Assembly (NCBI GenBank): GCA_002494215.1
Contig: DLBF01000100.1
Location: 1 to 12,184, forward strand
Source of the DNA: Prevotellaceae bacterium UBA7028
GTDB lineage: Bacteria; Bacteroidota; Bacteroidia; Bacteroidales; Bacteroidaceae
Length of the DNA stretch: 12,184 bases
Direction of reading: 5' to 3'
Positions 1,262 through 7,848 of the stretch are shown here, in pieces. Position 1 is the first letter of the stretch; each line of letters opens with the position of its first letter. Made by a program: the position numbers and the translations under genes. A model generated the notes under the pieces. The model ran no database searches, was not told the DNA's origin, and saw only the letters and a program-made list of their open reading frames with translations.

Positions 1262-1588
1262 ATGCGAAAAATTGTATTTATCACGAACGTCCTGGATGCT
1301 ATGAAGGGACTGAAGAAGGGGAAAAGAATAGAAGGTGCACTGTATGTGGACAAGAACACTGGCGTGTTGACCTTTAAGCCTTACTTCCGTAAGCAGACAA
1401 CCTATGTGGCAGACAAGCTGATATGCTATCTGGAAGATGGCTGGGTTAAGGAGAGCGCAAGGCGCATAAAGGTACATGTCAGCTTTAATAAGCTGCTTGG
1501 AATAGCAAGGATACTGAGCATGCTGGAGCGTGACACAAGGGATGCCAAGAACGCCCTGATTAACAAGGAAATGGAGGGTAGCTTATGA
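1262..1588 (+). CDS. Unknown basic protein of the replication module (108 aa)
   Basis: I do not recognise this family. From the ATG at 1262 it gives 108 residues, Lys/Arg-rich, beginning MRKIVFITNVLDAMKGLKKGKR with IEGALYVDKNTGVLTFKPYFRKQ after it. The C-terminal half (KVHVSFNKLLGIARILSMLERDTRDAKNAL) looks helical. The frame stays open back to 1199, but that extension would translate the nested inverted repeat, so the later ATG is preferred. Its TGA (1586-1588) overlaps the ATG of the 800-aa gene (1585) as ATGA, the classic arrangement for translational coupling. The two products are therefore probably made together, and a small partner or loader for the primase-helicase is a reasonable but unproven inference. 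No signal peptide or catalytic motif is seen. Confidence 0.72.
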   Translation: MRKIVFITNVLDAMKGLKKGKRIEGALYVDKNTGVLTFKPYFRKQTTYVADKLICYLEDGWVKESARRIKVHVSFNKLLGIARILSMLERDTRDAKNALINKEMEGSL

Positions 1589-3987
1589 TTTACAGGATAA
1601 TAAACAACGGGCACAAGCATGCCCATTTGGTAAGGAACCGCGAGGAGCTGATGGCACTGCGCAACTCTATCGAGAATCAGGATAACCTGCAGAAGGCTCG
1701 CAAGGGCGATGCCAAGGCTAAGTCAAGGCTGTTGCAGCTGTCTTACAATCTGGGACACGTGGATGGTGCCTTGGCAGGATGCAAGAGCATAGGAAGCTAT
1801 TTCTTTCACGACATTGATTCTTACGAAAATGAAAAAGCCTCCCCCGTCCCCTCCCAGGGAGGGGTGAACCAACAAGATAAAAGAACTCCCTCTCCCCTTG
1901 GAGAGGGTCGGGGTGAGGCTCTTAAGGATCTTATCCTAAGTAAGAAGGAGGAGATTGGGCTGATGATGCTGGAGAGGAGTGCCAGCGGTGGATGGCATCT
2001 GGTCTGTAAGCGTGTGCCAGGGACTACCATACTGGAGAATCAGGTTCGTGTGGCTACCATCCTAAAGATAGAGATGGATACCAGCACAAAGGACTTGCAG
2101 CGCATTGTGTACAGCACCAGCGGCAGCCCCGAAGACCTTGTCTATCTGGACGATGAACTCTTCACCGAGCCTATGACACCCGAAGAGTGTGTGCAGGAGT
2201 ACAACCGCCTAAAAGCCCGCGTAATGCGCAAAGAAGAGAACGTACCCGCAGGGGCGAAGAAGGCTAATAAACATTATCGCCCTTGGCTTGAAAATGAAAA
2301 AGCCTCCCCCGTCCCCTCCCAAGGAGGGGTGAACCAACAAGATGAAAGAACTCCCTCTCCCCTTGGAGAGGGTCGGGGTGAGGCTGTCCGTATCCGTTTC
2401 ATTGCCAAGGGAGTAATGAAGGAGAAGGGGTTGGAGGAGAATGATTTTCTGAACGAGGGCGGCAGACATACTACCGTCAAGATATTCCTGGGCGGAGCTA
2501 CGCAGTTGCTGAAAAAGGCTGAGGCGAATGCCGTTCTGAAGGAGCTAATGCCAGACCATTGGAACGACGACAATATCCAACAGCTGGTAAACGACTTCTA
2601 TCAGAACTACACCAATCCTAACCAGCGTCTGCTGAAATATCAGGAACAGCTCTTTACGCAGAGCCAGCGGCTCGGTGAAAATGAAGAATTAAAAGTGAAG
2701 AATGAAGAATCGGCAGTGCCGCCTGAGATGCCTACTCGTTTACCAAAACTGATTCAGTTGCTTACTTCGCGCACGCCTGCCATCTACAAGGCTGCAGTGG
2801 CACATGCCGTGTTTCCTGCGCTGGCGACACACCTATGGCGGACGCGATTCAGATACATCGACAATAAGTTGCACGAAGCTACGCTGATGAACTGCCTGAT
2901 GGCAGGAACGGGAGCGGGTAAGGACTGTATCTCGGAACCGATAGACCATATCATGGCAGACATTCGCCGCAACGATGCGGAGAATATGAAGCGCGAGAAG
3001 GAGTGGAAGGACGAGATTAACGCCAAGGGTGCCAACAAGGATAAGAGGAAGAGGCCAGAGGGCCTTGTGATTCAGGAGATTGATGCGGATATGACGAACC
3101 CTGCCTTTGTGATGCGTATGGCGGAGGCGGACGAGCATTTTCTGTATGTAAAACTGAACGAGATAGACCAGTTCGATGCGCTGAAAGGTAACGGCTCGGG
3201 CGGGCAACAGTTCAGGATCATGTGTCTGGCCTTCGACCCTAACAACCGCTATGGTCAGACGCGTATCGGCACCCAGTCGGTAACGGAAAGGGTATGTATC
3301 CGCTTCAACTGGAACGCTACGACTACCATTCAGAAGGGACAGAAGTACTTTAGCAGGGTGCTGACGGACGGACCGCTCAGCCGTATCAACTTCTGTACCA
3401 TACCAGAAAGGGAGATAGGCTCAGAGATTCCCGTATATGGGGAATACGACAGCAACTTCGACGATGAGTTGCGCCCCTATATAGAGCGCCTCTGTGCCGC
3501 CCGTGGCGAGATTGACTGTCCGCAGGCCTTTAAACTGGCCAAGAAACTGAACGAGGAGTGCGCAGACTTCTCGCGCCTCAGCCAGAGCCGTACCTACGAG
3601 AACTTCACCTTCCGAGCCAATGTGATAGCGTACCTGAAGGCCTGTGTGCTCTTTGTGGCCAACGACTACAAGTGGGACAAGTCGTGCGAGGACTTCATCC
3701 GCTGGTCTCTGAACTACGACCTGTGGTGCAAGATGCAGTTCTTCGGCGATGCCATAGAGCAGGTAAATAATACAGCCAGTCGTACAGGAACACGTGGCCC
3801 AAGGAATCTGTTGGAGCTGTTGCCTGACACCTTCACACTGGAGGATGCCAAACGTGTGAGAAAGTTAAATGGCATGGATGCGAAGAAAGCCAGCAATATG
3901 ATTGCCCAATGGAAATCTCGCAGATATATATTACAGATGACAGATGACAGTTTTCAAAAAGCAAGAAAAATAAACGATAATTTATAA
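1585..3987 (+). CDS. Primase-helicase fusion: BT4734/VirE_N-like AEP domain plus DUF3987 P-loop ATPase (800 aa)
   Basis: This is the likely replication protein of the mobile element. The N-terminal part (about 1-230) shows AEP-like motifs: FFHDID (73-78), SGGWH (134-138, an sxH-like motif) and VYLDDELF (186-193). This fits the BT4734-like/VirE_N primase-type domain. The C-terminal part (about 385-795) matches DUF3987 in layout. It has LPKLIQLLTSRTPAIYKAAV, a Walker A loop GTGAGKD (441-447, with Asp where Ser/Thr is usual), a Walker B-like YVKLNEID (521-528), and RFNWNATTTIQKGQKYF further on. Three low-complexity inserts interrupt it: two copies of a 32-residue SPVPSQGGVNQQ...PSPLGEGRGEA segment (81-112 and 236-267), and a Glu/Lys-rich heptamer-encoded stretch (about 366-375). 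All keep the frame. Translation is coupled to the preceding gene by ATGA. In known families such fusions prime and unwind DNA for phages and integrative elements. Activity of this copy is uncertain because of the inserts. Confidence 0.8.
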   Translation: MIYRIINNGHKHAHLVRNREELMALRNSIENQDNLQKARKGDAKAKSRLLQLSYNLGHVDGALAGCKSIGSYFFHDIDSYENEKASPVPSQGGVNQQDKRTPSPLGEGRGEALKDLILSKKEEIGLMMLERSASGGWHLVCKRVPGTTILENQVRVATILKIEMDTSTKDLQRIVYSTSGSPEDLVYLDDELFTEPMTPEECVQEYNRLKARVMRKEENVPAGAKKANKHYRPWLENEKASPVPSQGGVNQQDERTPSPLGEGRGEAVRIRFIAKGVMKEKGLEENDFLNEGGRHTTVKIFLGGATQLLKKAEANAVLKELMPDHWNDDNIQQLVNDFYQNYTNPNQRLLKYQEQLFTQSQRLGENEELKVKNEESAVPPEMPTRLPKLIQLLTSRTPAIYKAAVAHAVFPALATHLWRTRFRYIDNKLHEATLMNCLMAGTGAGKDCISEPIDHIMADIRRNDAENMKREKEWKDEINAKGANKDKRKRPEGLVIQEIDADMTNPAFVMRMAEADEHFLYVKLNEIDQFDALKGNGSGGQQFRIMCLAFDPNNRYGQTRIGTQSVTERVCIRFNWNATTTIQKGQKYFSRVLTDGPLSRINFCTIPEREIGSEIPVYGEYDSNFDDELRPYIERLCAARGEIDCPQAFKLAKKLNEECADFSRLSQSRTYENFTFRANVIAYLKACVLFVANDYKWDKSCEDFIRWSLNYDLWCKMQFFGDAIEQVNNTASRTGTRGPRNLLELLPDTFTLEDAKRVRKLNGMDAKKASNMIAQWKSRRYILQMTDDSFQKARKINDNL
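1825..1920 (+). repeat. 96-bp GC-rich palindromic repeat, copy 1 (inside the primase-helicase gene)
   Basis: This segment is 94/96 identical to 2290-2385, in the same orientation and the same reading frame. It contains a perfect hairpin CCCTCTCC-CCTT-GGAGAGGG (1888-1907) and a second one around CCCTCCC/GGGAGGG. Its GC-rich part starts with AGCCTCCCCCGTCCCC, and the right end, read on the other strand, starts with AGCCTCACCCCGACCC, so the ends form imperfect inverted repeats as in MITE/REP-type elements. It encodes residues 81-112, between AEP motif I and motif II. No target-site duplication is evident. Translations of the PSPLGEGRGE type are familiar from dispersed repeats in other genomes. 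Confidence 0.92.
2290..2385 (+). repeat. 96-bp GC-rich palindromic repeat, copy 2 (inside the primase-helicase gene)
   Basis: This second copy differs from 1825-1920 at two positions (CAGGG to CAAGG, silent, and GATAAAAG to GATGAAAG, Lys to Glu). It encodes residues 236-267, in the linker between the AEP-like domain and the DUF3987 part. The flanks of the two copies are unrelated (before: TCTTAC versus GGCTT; after: CTTAAGG versus GTCCGTA). The shared unit is therefore a mobile or converted repeat rather than a duplicated protein segment. Near-identity suggests recent arrival or ongoing gene conversion. Confidence 0.92.
2682..2710 (+). repeat. Heptanucleotide tract (TGAAGAA family) in the primase-helicase gene
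   Basis: Units TGAAGAA, TTAAAAG, TGAAGAA and TGAAGAA lie in tandem and encode the linker ELKVKNEE just before the DUF3987 domain. The second unit is degenerate. The same heptamer family occurs at 4992-5019 and 5854-5881. The tract sits at a domain boundary where inserted residues are likely tolerated. Confidence 0.8.
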
Positions 3988-4457: not shown

Positions 4458-4934
4458 TTACGTGCAGATAGTAAGGAGGGTGAGGGCTTGTAAATCCAGG
4501 TGGAAGGTGAAATTGATTGCCAGGGGCATAACGTAACGGACCTTAGGATGGGTAGTGGGGTGGGAGTTACGGATGGGGGCTTTGCTAATGTTGCGAATCT
4601 CCGTGAAGATACATTCCAGAATGGCATTGCTGAAGCTGTTGTCACCCCTTGCGGCATCGAAGTAGGCGAGAACCATACGGAGCTGCTCTATAAAATGGTG
4701 GGTGAAGACAGTCCGGAACTGTCCCTGGCGGGTGCTGACGCCTCCAAGAAACGGCTTGAACTCTTTCTTGAATCCGTCGATGGTGATAACCTCCTTATTC
4801 TGCATCTGCTCAAGGGCAAGGGGCAGGTCTGAGGGGGCTTTCATCAGGAGTTCTTCAAAATCTGCGTAACTGATTCTCGTCTTTGGTATGCCGAGACTTG
4901 CAAGAGCCTCATATTCTTCGTCTGATGTTGTCAT
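4458..4934 (-). CDS. Unrecognised cytoplasmic protein (158 aa)
   Basis: I do not recognise this protein. From the ATG at 4934 it reads MTTSDEEYEALASLGIPKTR and continues with SYADFEELLMKAPSDLPLALEQMQNKEVITIDGFKKEFKPFLGG, a largely helical, charged N-terminal half. The C-terminal half contains FTHHFIEQLRMVLAYFDAARGDNSFSNAILECIFTEIRN. There is no signal peptide or clear membrane segment. The frame is open up to 5072, but that extension would translate a heptamer repeat and the promoter-like region, so 4934 is preferred. It is convergent with the P5-like gene, with 34 bases between them. It may belong to the mobile island or be an adjacent chromosomal gene. A Bacteroidota-type promoter lies about 110 bases upstream of the start. 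Confidence 0.6.
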   Translation of the reverse strand: MTTSDEEYEALASLGIPKTRISYADFEELLMKAPSDLPLALEQMQNKEVITIDGFKKEFKPFLGGVSTRQGQFRTVFTHHFIEQLRMVLAYFDAARGDNSFSNAILECIFTEIRNISKAPIRNSHPTTHPKVRYVMPLAINFTFHLDLQALTLLTICT

Positions 4935-4991
4935 AGGTGTTCTGTGTTCAGTGCTTTTGTCGGTAATATCCTGGGGCAAAGGTAGAAAAAA

Positions 4992-5019
4992 TGAAGAATG
5001 AAGAGTGAAGAATGAAGAA
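4992..5019 (+). repeat. Heptanucleotide tract (TGAAGAA, 4 units) in the 5' leader of the 158-aa gene
   Basis: Units TGAAGAA, TGAAGAG, TGAAGAA and TGAAGAA lie between the proposed - strand promoter (5041-5048) and the ATG at 4934. They would therefore be transcribed in the leader. This is the same unit family, with the same single G variant, as at 5854-5881. Confidence 0.85.
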
Positions 5020-5040
5020 TAAACTTTGAGTTGAGTATTG

Positions 5041-5072
5041 CGAAAGTATTTTTTCCGATTCTGCATGCACAA
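5041..5072 (-). promoter_or_regulatory. Bacteroidota-type promoter for the 158-aa gene
   Basis: On the - strand the -7 box reads TACTTTCG (5048-5041), one base from TAnnTTTG. A TTG lies 21 bases upstream (5072-5070), close to the expected -33 spacing. It faces the 158-aa gene. The call rests on consensus matching only. Confidence 0.45.
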
Positions 5073-5796: not shown

Positions 5797-7848
5797 TTAT
5801 TTGCTTTGAAGGAACTTCTTTCCGTTCACTACGAAAACGCCGTTTTCTTTTAATGAAGAATGAAGAATGAAGAGTGAAGAATTTGCTGCCGCGTTGATTT
5901 TTCGTCCACTGAGGTCGTAAACCTCCCCTCCATTTTGAATTTTGAATTTTGAATTTTGAATTGCCCCAATGCCCGTTTCTGTTTCTGCCGTCTGGTCTTC
6001 CACTATGTACTTGCCATTGTCTTGGGTGCCGGTTATGCATAGGTAGCTGTCGGACCTGAGGCCCATGATATCTATGGTTTGCTTGCCAGAGGAGCCGCTG
6101 ACCACCAAGTTGATGTACTGGGTGGGCGAGCTAAGGCGGTAGGTCTGATAGAACCACCGCTTGCCGTTTATGTTCTTGGTGACGGTGACGCGCTTGCCTG
6201 GCCAGTTGCCACTGAGCTGCTTGTCCTGATTGTCCCAGGCATAGAAGTAGGTGCCCGTCCAGCTGATGTCGGAACGAACATACAATGTGATATCGTGGGG
6301 CTGGAATATCTGGTAGTCGCGCTGCTGGATGCCATAGACCTTGCCGCCCGACAGGATGCCTGCCCTAAGGGTGCACGATGATTCTATGTTCAGTATGGTG
6401 CCGTCCGCTACCTGCGAGCTCTCTGCCGTTGGCTCCGAACCGTCCGACGTATAGACGATGGTTGCCCCCGACAGGTTGCTGACAGCCGTCAGCCGAACAT
6501 TGAGCGGCGACTCGTAGGTGCCGTCGGGGATGTCCATCCAAACGGTATTGGCACTGCGGCTGAGGCAATAGCGGAATCCCTTGCCGGAAAGAATCTCGGT
6601 GTATTGCGACTTGCTTACGCTATAGTTCTGGGGCGAGTTGCCCACCACGCAGAGTAGGGTGGCGGCATTGCCCGTGGTGGCTGTGGCGTAGTAGTTCTGA
6701 GCGCTGTATTTCTGTTGCGTGCTGCTGGTGTTGGTGATGCCTGCCAGACGGCGTGCCAGAATCATCTGCTTGAGGGCGTACTTGCAATCGCGCCAATGGG
6801 TATAGAAGATGCAGGGTGTGCCGGGCATTGCCAGCAGGTAGGCATTGGCTGCCAGGGTGTCTGTGCGGATGGGGTCCTGCTCATCACCGTTGCCGCGCTT
6901 CTCCGTGTCGTGGTTCTCGACAAAGGTAACGGCATACTGCTTGTAGTAGTTGTCGGCCACAAGGGGTTTCTCGTCGTATCCTAGCCAGCGCCAGTCGCGA
7001 TTGTTGATGGCATCGCGCATACGAAAGCGGAACTGGAAGTCGAAGGCGGCGCTGGTGGGTTTGTCCGAGACGTATCCCTTGCTGTTGCTGACCCACTCCT
7101 TGATCTTGCTGCTGCTGTCCCAGTATTCGCCCACGCTGAAGGCGGGTTGGGCATAGGTGTTGTAATCGGCTATGAAATAGGCATAGAAGCCCTTCACCAT
7201 ATCGTAGCGGAAACCCGTATATCCGATGTCCTCTAGCAGGAACTTCAGGTAGGCCTTGATGCAACGCTGCACGTTGGGGCTCTTGTGGTCCAGGTCGCGA
7301 CAGCCGGGCCAGTCCTCGCCTGTATCATCGTTCTGCGACAGCGAAAGGCCGTTGCCGCTGGCCCATCCCAGAGTGGCGCCTCCGTCATCATTACGGCAGA
7401 TGTCGGTGGGCAGCATCTGGTAGGTCTCTCCGTTATAGGTCTCGGCCGGATAATCCACCCACGAGCCGTTCTGCCCCATGTTGCTGCGGTGGTTGATAAC
7501 CACATCAGCTATCACCCCCGTTCCCCTCTGCCTGAAGGCGGAAATCATGCTGCGCAACTGAGCCTCAGAACCGAAGGAACTCTTTTGGTTGAAGTAATAG
7601 ACAGGCGTGTAGCCCATCATGTTATAGTCTGTGTTGCACCATCCGCTCTGGGGCACCCATACAAGCTGGAAGTAGGGCGCTATCTCGTCTGCCTCGGCCT
7701 GCAGCTTGGCCCACGACGTTTGGGAATAGGAGTCCCAATAGAACCCTTGCAGCATGACGCCGCCATAGTCGGACGGCCATCCTTGGGCGTGAATGCCCGG
7801 CTGTAGCAAGACCGTCAGTAAAAGCAGTAAAGCGTTTCTTTTCATCAT
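5797..7848 (-). CDS. Secreted GH13 alpha-amylase with CHB_HEX_C-like and CBM26-like modules and a sorting domain (683 aa)
   Basis: It hydrolyses internal alpha-1,4 bonds of starch-like glucans outside the inner membrane. A Sec signal (MMKRNALLLLLTVLLQPGIHA, residues 1-21) leads into the GH13 barrel. Region I is DVVINH (115-120), region II GFRYD (nucleophile D216), region III VGEYW (acid/base E241) and region IV FVENHD (D314), so all catalytic residues are present. The pattern resembles plant-type alpha-amylases (QGFYWDS, ENHDTE). Residues about 445-513 look like a chitobiase/hexosaminidase C-terminal (CHB_HEX_C) module (IVYTSDGSEPT). About 518-605 fits a CBM26-like starch-binding module. The tail VYDLSGRKI ... 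LKENGVFVVNGKKFLQ resembles a T9SS type A sorting domain, predicting surface display or export. Two heptamer repeats are translated around it (NSKFKIQN and NSSLFILHSS). It is divergently transcribed from the DUF1080 gene. A second in-frame ATG directly follows the first. Confidence 0.9.
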   Translation of the reverse strand: MMKRNALLLLLTVLLQPGIHAQGWPSDYGGVMLQGFYWDSYSQTSWAKLQAEADEIAPYFQLVWVPQSGWCNTDYNMMGYTPVYYFNQKSSFGSEAQLRSMISAFRQRGTGVIADVVINHRSNMGQNGSWVDYPAETYNGETYQMLPTDICRNDDGGATLGWASGNGLSLSQNDDTGEDWPGCRDLDHKSPNVQRCIKAYLKFLLEDIGYTGFRYDMVKGFYAYFIADYNTYAQPAFSVGEYWDSSSKIKEWVSNSKGYVSDKPTSAAFDFQFRFRMRDAINNRDWRWLGYDEKPLVADNYYKQYAVTFVENHDTEKRGNGDEQDPIRTDTLAANAYLLAMPGTPCIFYTHWRDCKYALKQMILARRLAGITNTSSTQQKYSAQNYYATATTGNAATLLCVVGNSPQNYSVSKSQYTEILSGKGFRYCLSRSANTVWMDIPDGTYESPLNVRLTAVSNLSGATIVYTSDGSEPTAESSQVADGTILNIESSCTLRAGILSGGKVYGIQQRDYQIFQPHDITLYVRSDISWTGTYFYAWDNQDKQLSGNWPGKRVTVTKNINGKRWFYQTYRLSSPTQYINLVVSGSSGKQTIDIMGLRSDSYLCITGTQDNGKYIVEDQTAETETGIGAIQNSKFKIQNGGEVYDLSGRKINAAANSSLFILHSSLKENGVFVVNGKKFLQSK
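5854..5881 (+). repeat. Heptanucleotide tract (TGAAGAA, 4 units) within the amylase sorting domain
   Basis: Units TGAAGAA, TGAAGAA, TGAAGAG and TGAAGAA on the + strand are translated on the - strand as SSLFILHSSL, between YDLSGRKI and ENGVFVV. Related sorting domains have only a short loop there. The unit length of seven means any unit change shifts the reading frame. Confidence 0.88.
5932..5962 (+). repeat. Heptanucleotide tract (GAATTTT, about 4.4 units) before the amylase sorting domain
   Basis: ATTTT is followed by GAATTTT three times and GAATT. It is translated on the - strand as QNSKFKIQN at the junction between the binding modules and the sorting domain. It is the reverse complement of the AAAATTC tract at 862-888. 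Confidence 0.88.

Follow-up and report, generated by a model that had tools for sequence, protein, structure and literature searches.

The window analysed here is a stretch of 12,184 nt (contig DLBF01000100.1, assembly GCA_002494215.1) of Prevotellaceae bacterium UBA7028, a rumen Prevotella-like bacterium. One of its open reading frames (ORFs), encoding a protein of 800 aa, contains two near-identical palindromic segments that are read in frame with the rest of the gene. We consider it likely that these segments are nuclease-less, non-autonomous copies, similar to Rickettsia palindromic elements (RPEs) and to REPINs (paired repetitive extragenic palindromic, REP, sequences), of a hairpin-ended mobile endonuclease element whose nuclease would be of the DUF559 family. 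The link of such arms to DUF559 endonuclease genes goes beyond the earlier sequence-only reading of this DNA, which had proposed a palindromic unit of the REP or MITE (miniature inverted-repeat transposable element) kind tolerated by the protein. That proposal is upheld by the dispersal of the arms in relatives and by the low-confidence loops predicted at the inserts. Identifiers beginning with G, L and P designate the genomes, loci and proteins of this analysis.

Two inverted doublets in one reading frame

The repeat search of the window gave a single family, composed of two 96-nt copies on the same strand that are 98% identical (2 differences). Both are located inside the ORF 1585-3987 (+ strand, 800 aa) and are stop-free; being 465 bp (155 codons) apart, they share the same reading frame. 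The sequence-only reading was therefore right in describing two same-frame segments, identical at 94/96 positions, in one gene. Its unit of 96 bp is indeed a repeat of that length, but the inverted doublet proper measures 85 bp (AGCCTC...GAGGCT, at 1836-1920 and 2301-2385), the remainder being flank. Each doublet is composed of a left arm of a short type (S) and of a related, longer right arm (L) in inverted orientation. The sequence GAAAATGAA is found directly before the 85-bp doublet and also starts a 7-bp tandem array at 2676-2710. Folded alone, copy 1 forms a single long hairpin of -50 kcal/mol, compared with a shuffle mean of -31.6 (z -5.05; 0/200 shuffles as low). The Rfam scan of the window gave no match, and neither the exact long arm pattern nor the host gene was found in viral contigs.

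DUF559 genes flanked by inverted arms

The counts given below refer to genomes reached through homologues of the host gene, to a genus sample, to a Bacteroidota sample and to plasmids of other phyla, and not to the window's own genome. In G031 and G047, inverted arm pairs located about 470-500 bp apart enclose a small ORF that corresponds to DUF559 (PF04480), a domain of about 110 codons. DUF559 is present in 13 of the 15 genomes searched first, in 37/61 genomes of the genus sample and in 78/148 of a Bacteroidota sample. An inverted-arm score was obtained by aligning the two 300-bp flanks of the gene. This score is above 26 at 29 of the 30 DUF559 loci of the genus sample and at least 32 at 27 of them, some of these loci being orthologous pairs and not independent. 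As controls, 21 of 2000 random places of equal spacing exceed 26 and 11 reach 32 (7/2000 at 32 or more in another draw), and 5 of 271 other small ORFs score above 26. The arms beat their own shuffles at p<=0.01 at 29/30 genus loci, 19/29 Bacteroidota loci and 8/14 plasmid loci of other phyla (4/4 from Deinococcus, 3/4 from cyanobacteria and one from Sphingomonas). Arm-flanked DUF559 copies were seen in Bacteroidota, Deinococcota, Cyanobacteriota and Alphaproteobacteria.

The pair of arms around one DUF559 gene is mostly near-identical, and arm families often differ from gene to gene. The arm family CCCCTCCCCTGTTAGGGAGGGG counts 15, 6 and 30 copies (own arms included) in three genomes that possess the matching DUF559 gene (L263, L273 and L282). 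Among 12 other genomes, it has 13 copies in G033 and one in G048, where no DUF559 gene with such arms was seen, and none in the remaining 10. Over the 61 genomes of the genus sample, the number of modules follows the number of DUF559 matches with a Spearman coefficient of 0.64, a raw figure uncorrected for kinship; the median is of 8 modules in the 33 genomes with a strong DUF559 match and of 0 in the 28 without.

The DUF559 profile matches the structures 3hrl (E 3.5e-30) and 3r3p, annotated as "Mobile intron protein" (E 1.1e-6), and 13 columns are invariant across 46 DUF559 sequences, the copies embedded in other genes included. On Deinococcus plasmids (L319, L323, L324, L325), the places of arm-flanked DUF559 genes differ between three species, although all are in the hpa cluster, and a fourth species has such a gene in the paa cluster; on the Sphingomonas plasmid the DUF559 gene is located between sufB and sufC. 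These positions are as would be expected for a mobile gene.

Link of the window arms to the gmk element

The left arm of copy 2 is identical at 32/33 positions to one arm of the DUF559 element adjacent to gmk in G004 and G061, and that of copy 1 at 31/33. For the opposite arms of the two gmk elements, the match is of 28/29 and 32/34 positions. In G004, the element measures about 450 bp, extends from AGCCTC to GAGGCT, begins two bases past the stop codon of the upstream gene and replaces the first codons of gmk, which is fused in frame to DUF559. The gmk element of G061 is the same, with about 20 additional bases before it. The corresponding site is empty in G001, G006 and G002, whose upstream flanks are 84-91% identical to that of G004. 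The insertion in G004 ends at the arm ends, with no clear target-site duplication. In G001, the element-free gmk (L335) starts with ATGGGGGGGAGGCT, in which GGGGGAGGCT corresponds to the last bases of the right arm of the G004 element; this match is either an excision footprint or due to chance.

Whole elements in frame inside genes

Using Pfam, DUF559 was detected inside leucyl-tRNA synthetase (LeuRS; L315), methionine synthase between two B12 domains (L304, L309), HsdR (L294, L296), HsdM (L301), a type ISP protein (L289) and a DNA methylase (L290), as well as at the ends of PurD (L288) and of phosphoglycerate mutase (L263). At the DNA level, arms are significant around DUF559 in all these host genes with the exception of L290 (p 0.02). 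The DUF559 part of L304 was then used as query in a protein search limited to proteins of about 610-1940 aa, which gave 755 matches among 1044 candidates. According to their motifs, the best 120 of these 755 comprise 103 methionine synthases, 3 IleRS, 2 MetRS, 2 LeuRS and 10 others; 93 have one DUF559 domain, 26 have two and one has three. The 120 records are protein sequences, and in many of those inspected peptides resembling the arms are found next to the domain. The records of DUF559-bearing hosts include Flavobacterium micromati (P0137, with DUF559 in methionine synthase) and Ignavibacterium sp., names without the mark of a metagenome bin. One site in the editing domain of LeuRS contains a short doublet in G004 and G006 and a DUF559 insert in P0148 and P0149.

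Alternatively, DUF559 might be a passenger or a host repair nuclease, the hairpins being terminators or ordinary repeats accumulated around it, with movement due to another enzyme or to recombination. This main rival, which we find rather doubtful, is favoured by the existence of DUF559 genes without arms and by the Caulobacter DUF559 protein VsrA, which has been studied as a Vsr-like, repair-type endonuclease and for which a repair-like role is reported (PMC12907096). It accounts poorly for the near-identity of the two arms of one gene when arm families often differ between genes, and for the low frequency of arms around other small ORFs. A terminator would moreover make no sense inside the ORFs of LeuRS or MetH, and the 27 host proteins with two or three DUF559 domains also argue against a passenger.

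Taking these occurrences together, we favour, with somewhat less assurance than for the window segments, the view that arm-flanked DUF559 genes form a widespread and unrecognised class of mobile elements. This class would be intein-like in its positions but splice-less, would lodge in frame in essential proteins, among which LeuRS, MetRS, IleRS and methionine synthase, occasionally with two or three copies in a protein, and would shed nuclease-less doublets that spread disordered loops through the proteomes of whole lineages.

Dispersal of the arms in related genomes

As the sequence-only reading had suggested, the unit was searched in related genomes, and its arms were found dispersed there. 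BLAST with the 96-bp unit gave matches in 10 of the 15 genomes to which the homologues had led, with a maximum of 21 per genome, most of them corresponding to a single arm. A pattern covering the two arm types has 20, 28 and 31 matches in three relatives, versus 1, 2 and 5 for the reversed control, and the arm pattern has at least one match in 40/61 genomes of the genus sample. Where two arms lie close together, they are inverted, with their tags outward, in 17 of 19 cases (8/8 and 9/11 in two sets), the other two being in tandem.

This geometry, in which paired inverted hairpin modules coexist with dispersed single ones, is that of REPINs, and the doublets could be imagined to be moved by an IS200-type RAYT (REP-associated tyrosine transposase; Y1, PF01797), with DUF559 surrounded by chance or as a preferred landing site. 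Y1 matches do occur in 4 of the 7 module-rich genomes. This possibility nevertheless appears unlikely to us: PF01797 was not found in the unfinished assemblies G001, G006 and G061, no module was seen at the 6 Y1 loci examined (about 3 kb each), and the genes that the arms flank are DUF559 genes instead.

Of the 79 pattern matches in the three genomes, 66 fall in stop-to-stop frames of at least 250 aa (some of them at gene edges), 4 in frames of 150-249 aa and 6 in shorter ones, while 3 are in none. Random places of the same loci fall in frames of at least 250 aa in 2740/3209 cases (85%). The arms therefore neither seek nor avoid genes. The tabulation of positions and frames proposed in the sequence-only reading thus gives a majority of long frames, in a share that equals that of random places, and a preference of the arms for genes, considered as a candidate, was dropped. 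Such a preference is not needed by the mechanism proposed below.

A Pfam scan of 30 host ORFs placed the module inside one domain in 10 cases and between two domains of one protein in 6; one module (L161) is located between DUF559 and guanylate kinase, and 13 are not bracketed by the scan. The modules inside domains are hosted by CTP synthase, the CCA-adding enzyme (two sites), the editing domain of LeuRS (a whole doublet), ArgRS, MetRS, OMP decarboxylase, a HerA-like helicase, phosphoglycerate mutase, serine dehydratase and a NanM-like protein.

At 46 distinct long-frame sites, the S arms (28 sites) are read in all five stop-free frames and never in the sixth, and the L arms (18 sites) in three frames. 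This variety of frames across genes argues against a selection for the peptide as a linker, and the "ready-made flexible linker" of the sequence-only reading was rejected. The position of the inserts in essential enzymes and their strong hairpins could also evoke a removal after transcription or translation (intron-like, intein-like or by ribosome bypass), the mature protein being without them. We regard this as very improbable. The stop-containing frame of the S arm is unused (0/28 distinct sites), an outcome that the choice of long open frames favours, and no splicing domain was detected by Pfam (E <= 1e-5) in 10 DUF559-bearing ORFs, nor any in the 30 module-host ORFs.

The host protein and its two insert sites

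The homology search with the host protein retained the best 120 of 8000 scored homologues, and 49 of them, the window's own protein (P0001) included, were compared at all sites. The distant homologues among those compared have a short loop at site 1, after HDID and before ALKDLI. The doublet peptide ENEKASPVPSQGG...GEGRGEA is present at both sites in 7/49 homologues (P0001, P0002, P0005-P0009), at site 1 only in two (P0003, P0015) and at site 2 only in three (P0004, P0012 and, as a variant, P0011), which gives 9/49 for site 1 and 10/49 for site 2. From this distribution it follows that the two sites vary independently. In the remaining homologues, the sites are filled with other repeat-derived or unrelated sequence, for instance a single arm in P0016, and the more distant P0110 has related arm peptides at site 2. 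The alignment thus agrees with the inserted nature of the segments put forward in the sequence-only reading: the more distant homologues compared are without the same doublet segments, some having related arm peptides. A protein search limited to the insert gave 13 proteins from 17 candidates, 12 of them from the host-gene family; the last one, P0121, is a DUF3987-family protein with the doublet peptide near its N-terminus.

For the 800-aa protein, AlphaFold gives a predicted local distance difference test (pLDDT) below 50 at residues 82-107, 239-263 and 365-376, which cover most of each insert. The model is poor overall (mean pLDDT 64, predicted template-modelling score 0.35) and other stretches, such as 490-617, are equally low; the low values at the inserts are as expected for flexible loops, yet not specific to them. 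Pfam, NCBIfam and PHROGs gave no usable match on the host protein (one Pfam match at chance level, E 0.14). The best Foldseek match of the model is the RepB' primase 3h20 (E 0.039), followed by several lower Prim-Pol structures, with none at E <= 0.001. The reading of the gene as a primase of the archaeo-eukaryotic type is thus weakly supported by this model, and the placement of the inserts relative to the motifs of such primases, as given in the sequence-only reading, is weak.

Within the same gene family, the locus L074 of G001 was considered as an empty allele on account of an apparent identity of 94%, and was rejected for its different N-terminal domain. In the protein encoded at L074 (5001-6824), the best segment, in the C-terminal part, is 94% identical to the window protein, which indicates domain swapping within the host-gene family.

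Protein loops reused by different repeats

The gene of the CCA-adding enzyme was detected in 59/61 genomes of the genus sample, and 30 of its loci were aligned. Site 1 is a plain GSG turn in 11 of the 29 readable loci; elsewhere it is filled by a single S arm (L173), a doublet of another family (L178), 7-bp arrays (L174, L175, L176) or other sequence. At site 2, L173 and L176 have doublets of the kind found in the window, and L177, L178 and L179 have other doublets. In L201 and L186, this site contains heptamer arrays arranged as two inverted arms around a spacer; these have the geometry of a doublet with a quite different sequence and possibly represent another element family. The doublets of L177 and L179, from two other genomes, form a separate family with AGACCCCCCAACCCCC arms at one shared loop of the enzyme. 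CTP synthase was found in 39/61 genomes (30 aligned) and has repeat-filled inserts at several loops. In relatives, several families of heptamer arrays occupy loops that are also used by hairpin doublets. The reuse of particular loops by different repeats favours tolerance over function.

It might be supposed that low-complexity DNA of whatever origin is collected in permissive loops through slippage or illegitimate recombination and that the doublets, one kind of filling among several, are not mobile elements, as 7-bp tandem arrays and other repeats occupy the same loops in other species. We attach little probability to this explanation, given that the arm sequence is common to unrelated genes, that inverted pairs dominate and that the insertion in G004, compared with the empty site, spans exactly from arm end to arm end.

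Proposed mechanism and its weak points

A complete element is composed of a left arm, a DUF559 coding stretch and an inverted right arm (about 450-500 bp in the measured cases) and can be inserted with the reading frame of the host kept open. This anatomy, the dispersal of the arms, their use of frames, the empty site and the association with DUF559 genes are observations; the biochemical steps that follow are those of the mechanism that we propose. The DUF559 nuclease would open the DNA at the target or at the arms, and repair would then copy the hairpin-ended element into the opened DNA. The arms would be recognised either by DUF559 or by the repair machinery. As the arms are stop-free in most frames, a frame-keeping copy in a protein loop would be translated into a peptide rich in Pro, Gly and Ser and would survive; copies in genes would thus persist when the frame is kept and the site is a loop. 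Internal loss of the nuclease would give doublets such as those of the window, with two arms and a short spacer, which may still be moved in trans.

Several observations weigh against this interpretation. Movement is deduced from the comparison of sequences, none having been observed directly, and a target-site duplication was not established. Arms were not found (p<=0.01) at 10/29 Bacteroidota loci and at 6/14 plasmid loci, namely one from Synechocystis, two from Azospirillum and those from Photobacterium, Sinorhizobium and Methylobacterium, and three of the 30 genus loci have scores of 25-28 (L272 25, L266 27, L265 28). The reversed pattern itself has 25 matches in G060, and the unfinished assemblies G042, G033 and G041 have 31, 14 and 11 modules with no strong DUF559 match. 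Concerning the window itself, no DUF559 gene is present within its 12,184 nt, its doublets join arms of the two types, S and L, and the match to other DUF559 arms is weaker for type L (28/32, 30/35, 33/38 and 34/39). The in-gene share of the arms equals that of random places and shows tolerance, not gene targeting. To these points are added the repair-type description of VsrA, the orthologous pairs among the 30 genus loci and the kinship contained in the Spearman coefficient.

Features of the window

The coordinates of the host gene and of its repeats are collected in Table 1.

Table 1. Host gene, doublets and tandem array of the window (positions on the forward strand).
Feature	Positions	Strand	Evidence and remarks
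Host gene, 800 aa	1585..3987	+	ORF; homologues numerous in Prevotella-like bacteria; weak resemblance to primases in the N-terminal part
In-frame insert, copy 1, 32 codons	1825..1920	+	repeat search
Copy 1 left arm, short type S, hairpin module	1836..1868	+	31/33 to one arm of the DUF559-gmk element, G004/G061
Copy 1 right arm, long type L, inverted	1885..1920	-	
In-frame insert, copy 2, 32 codons	2290..2385	+	94/96 identical to copy 1
Copy 2 left arm, S type	2301..2333	+	32/33 to one arm of the DUF559-gmk element, G004/G061
Copy 2 right arm, L type, inverted	2350..2385	-	
Third in-frame repeat, 7-bp tandem array	2676..2710	+	read as ENEELKVKNEE; different repeat kind; loop variable among homologues

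A gene similar to Rha/KilAC anti-repressors (2-613) is located upstream of the host gene and a gene similar to phage endolysins (4004-4423) downstream of it. With these neighbours, the host gene may itself be part of a mobile or phage-derived cluster. An amylase-like gene (5797-7848, - strand) has two 7-bp tandem arrays in its C-terminal part, both in frame: those at 5852-5882 and 5932-5962 are read as SSLFILHSSL and QNSKFKIQN and flank a YDLSGRKI motif, which we take to resemble a sorting domain. Of two further arrays, at 825-889 and 4990-5020, one is mostly extragenic and one is at the start of the ORF 4458-5072 (- strand).

Comparison with known systems

Protein-coding palindromes have been known from Rickettsia since 2000. 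According to the parts of the literature consulted, RPEs are palindromic, of the order of 100 bp and inserted in frame in many conserved protein genes, with no enzyme named there (PMC2229807, PMC10969869), and one RPE-bearing guanylate kinase is reported to have kept its activity with a changed substrate affinity (PMC2229807). The window doublets are likewise palindromic and in frame within a protein-coding gene. Unlike RPEs, they come from another phylum, they are inverted doublets of REP-like arms, and arms of the same kind flank a nuclease gene. If the interpretation is true, protein-coding palindromes would gain a testable kind of enzymatic partner.

REPINs are non-autonomous inverted pairs of short hairpin modules, of which single ones are dispersed too, and they flank the gene of their enzyme; REP elements are extragenic. 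The present doublets share with them the inverted pair of REP-like hairpins (17/19 close pairs). However, the flanked gene is here DUF559 and not Y1, no consistent Y1 gene was seen beside the repeats in these unfinished assemblies, and the location is not extragenic (66/79 in frames of at least 250 aa, against 2740/3209 for random places). MITEs derived from insertion sequences are also short, non-autonomous and limited by inverted ends; here, no parent insertion sequence was found and no target-site duplication established.

I-Bth0305I is an example of the EDxHD or Vsr-type homing endonucleases, to which DUF559 is related by its profile match to 3r3p. In contrast with these systems, no intron was seen, and the stretch coding for the nuclease is bordered by inverted hairpins and occurs in many different host genes. 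Complete DUF559 elements resemble inteins in that a nuclease domain is read in frame within an essential host protein; they differ by the absence of a detected splicing domain, and the DUF559 insert would stay in the host protein. If this holds, a selfish nuclease would have, besides inteins and self-splicing introns, a third means of residing in an essential gene, that of being tolerated and not removed. A Pfam domain of "unknown function", DUF559, would then be the enzyme of a mobile element. The inserts would also constitute a natural insertion-scan of the loops that accept foreign sequence in universal enzymes (tRNA synthetases, CTP synthase, the CCA-adding enzyme, methionine synthase), with a bearing on the origin of disordered protein loops.

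No description of a hairpin-ended mobile element with a DUF559 gene was met in the open-access literature searched. To our knowledge, the arm-flanked, in-frame nuclease element corresponds to no described kind. Compared with the systems above, the doublet alone would be a variant of the known palindromic kinds, and the novelty would lie in the nuclease that is flanked by arms and read in frame.

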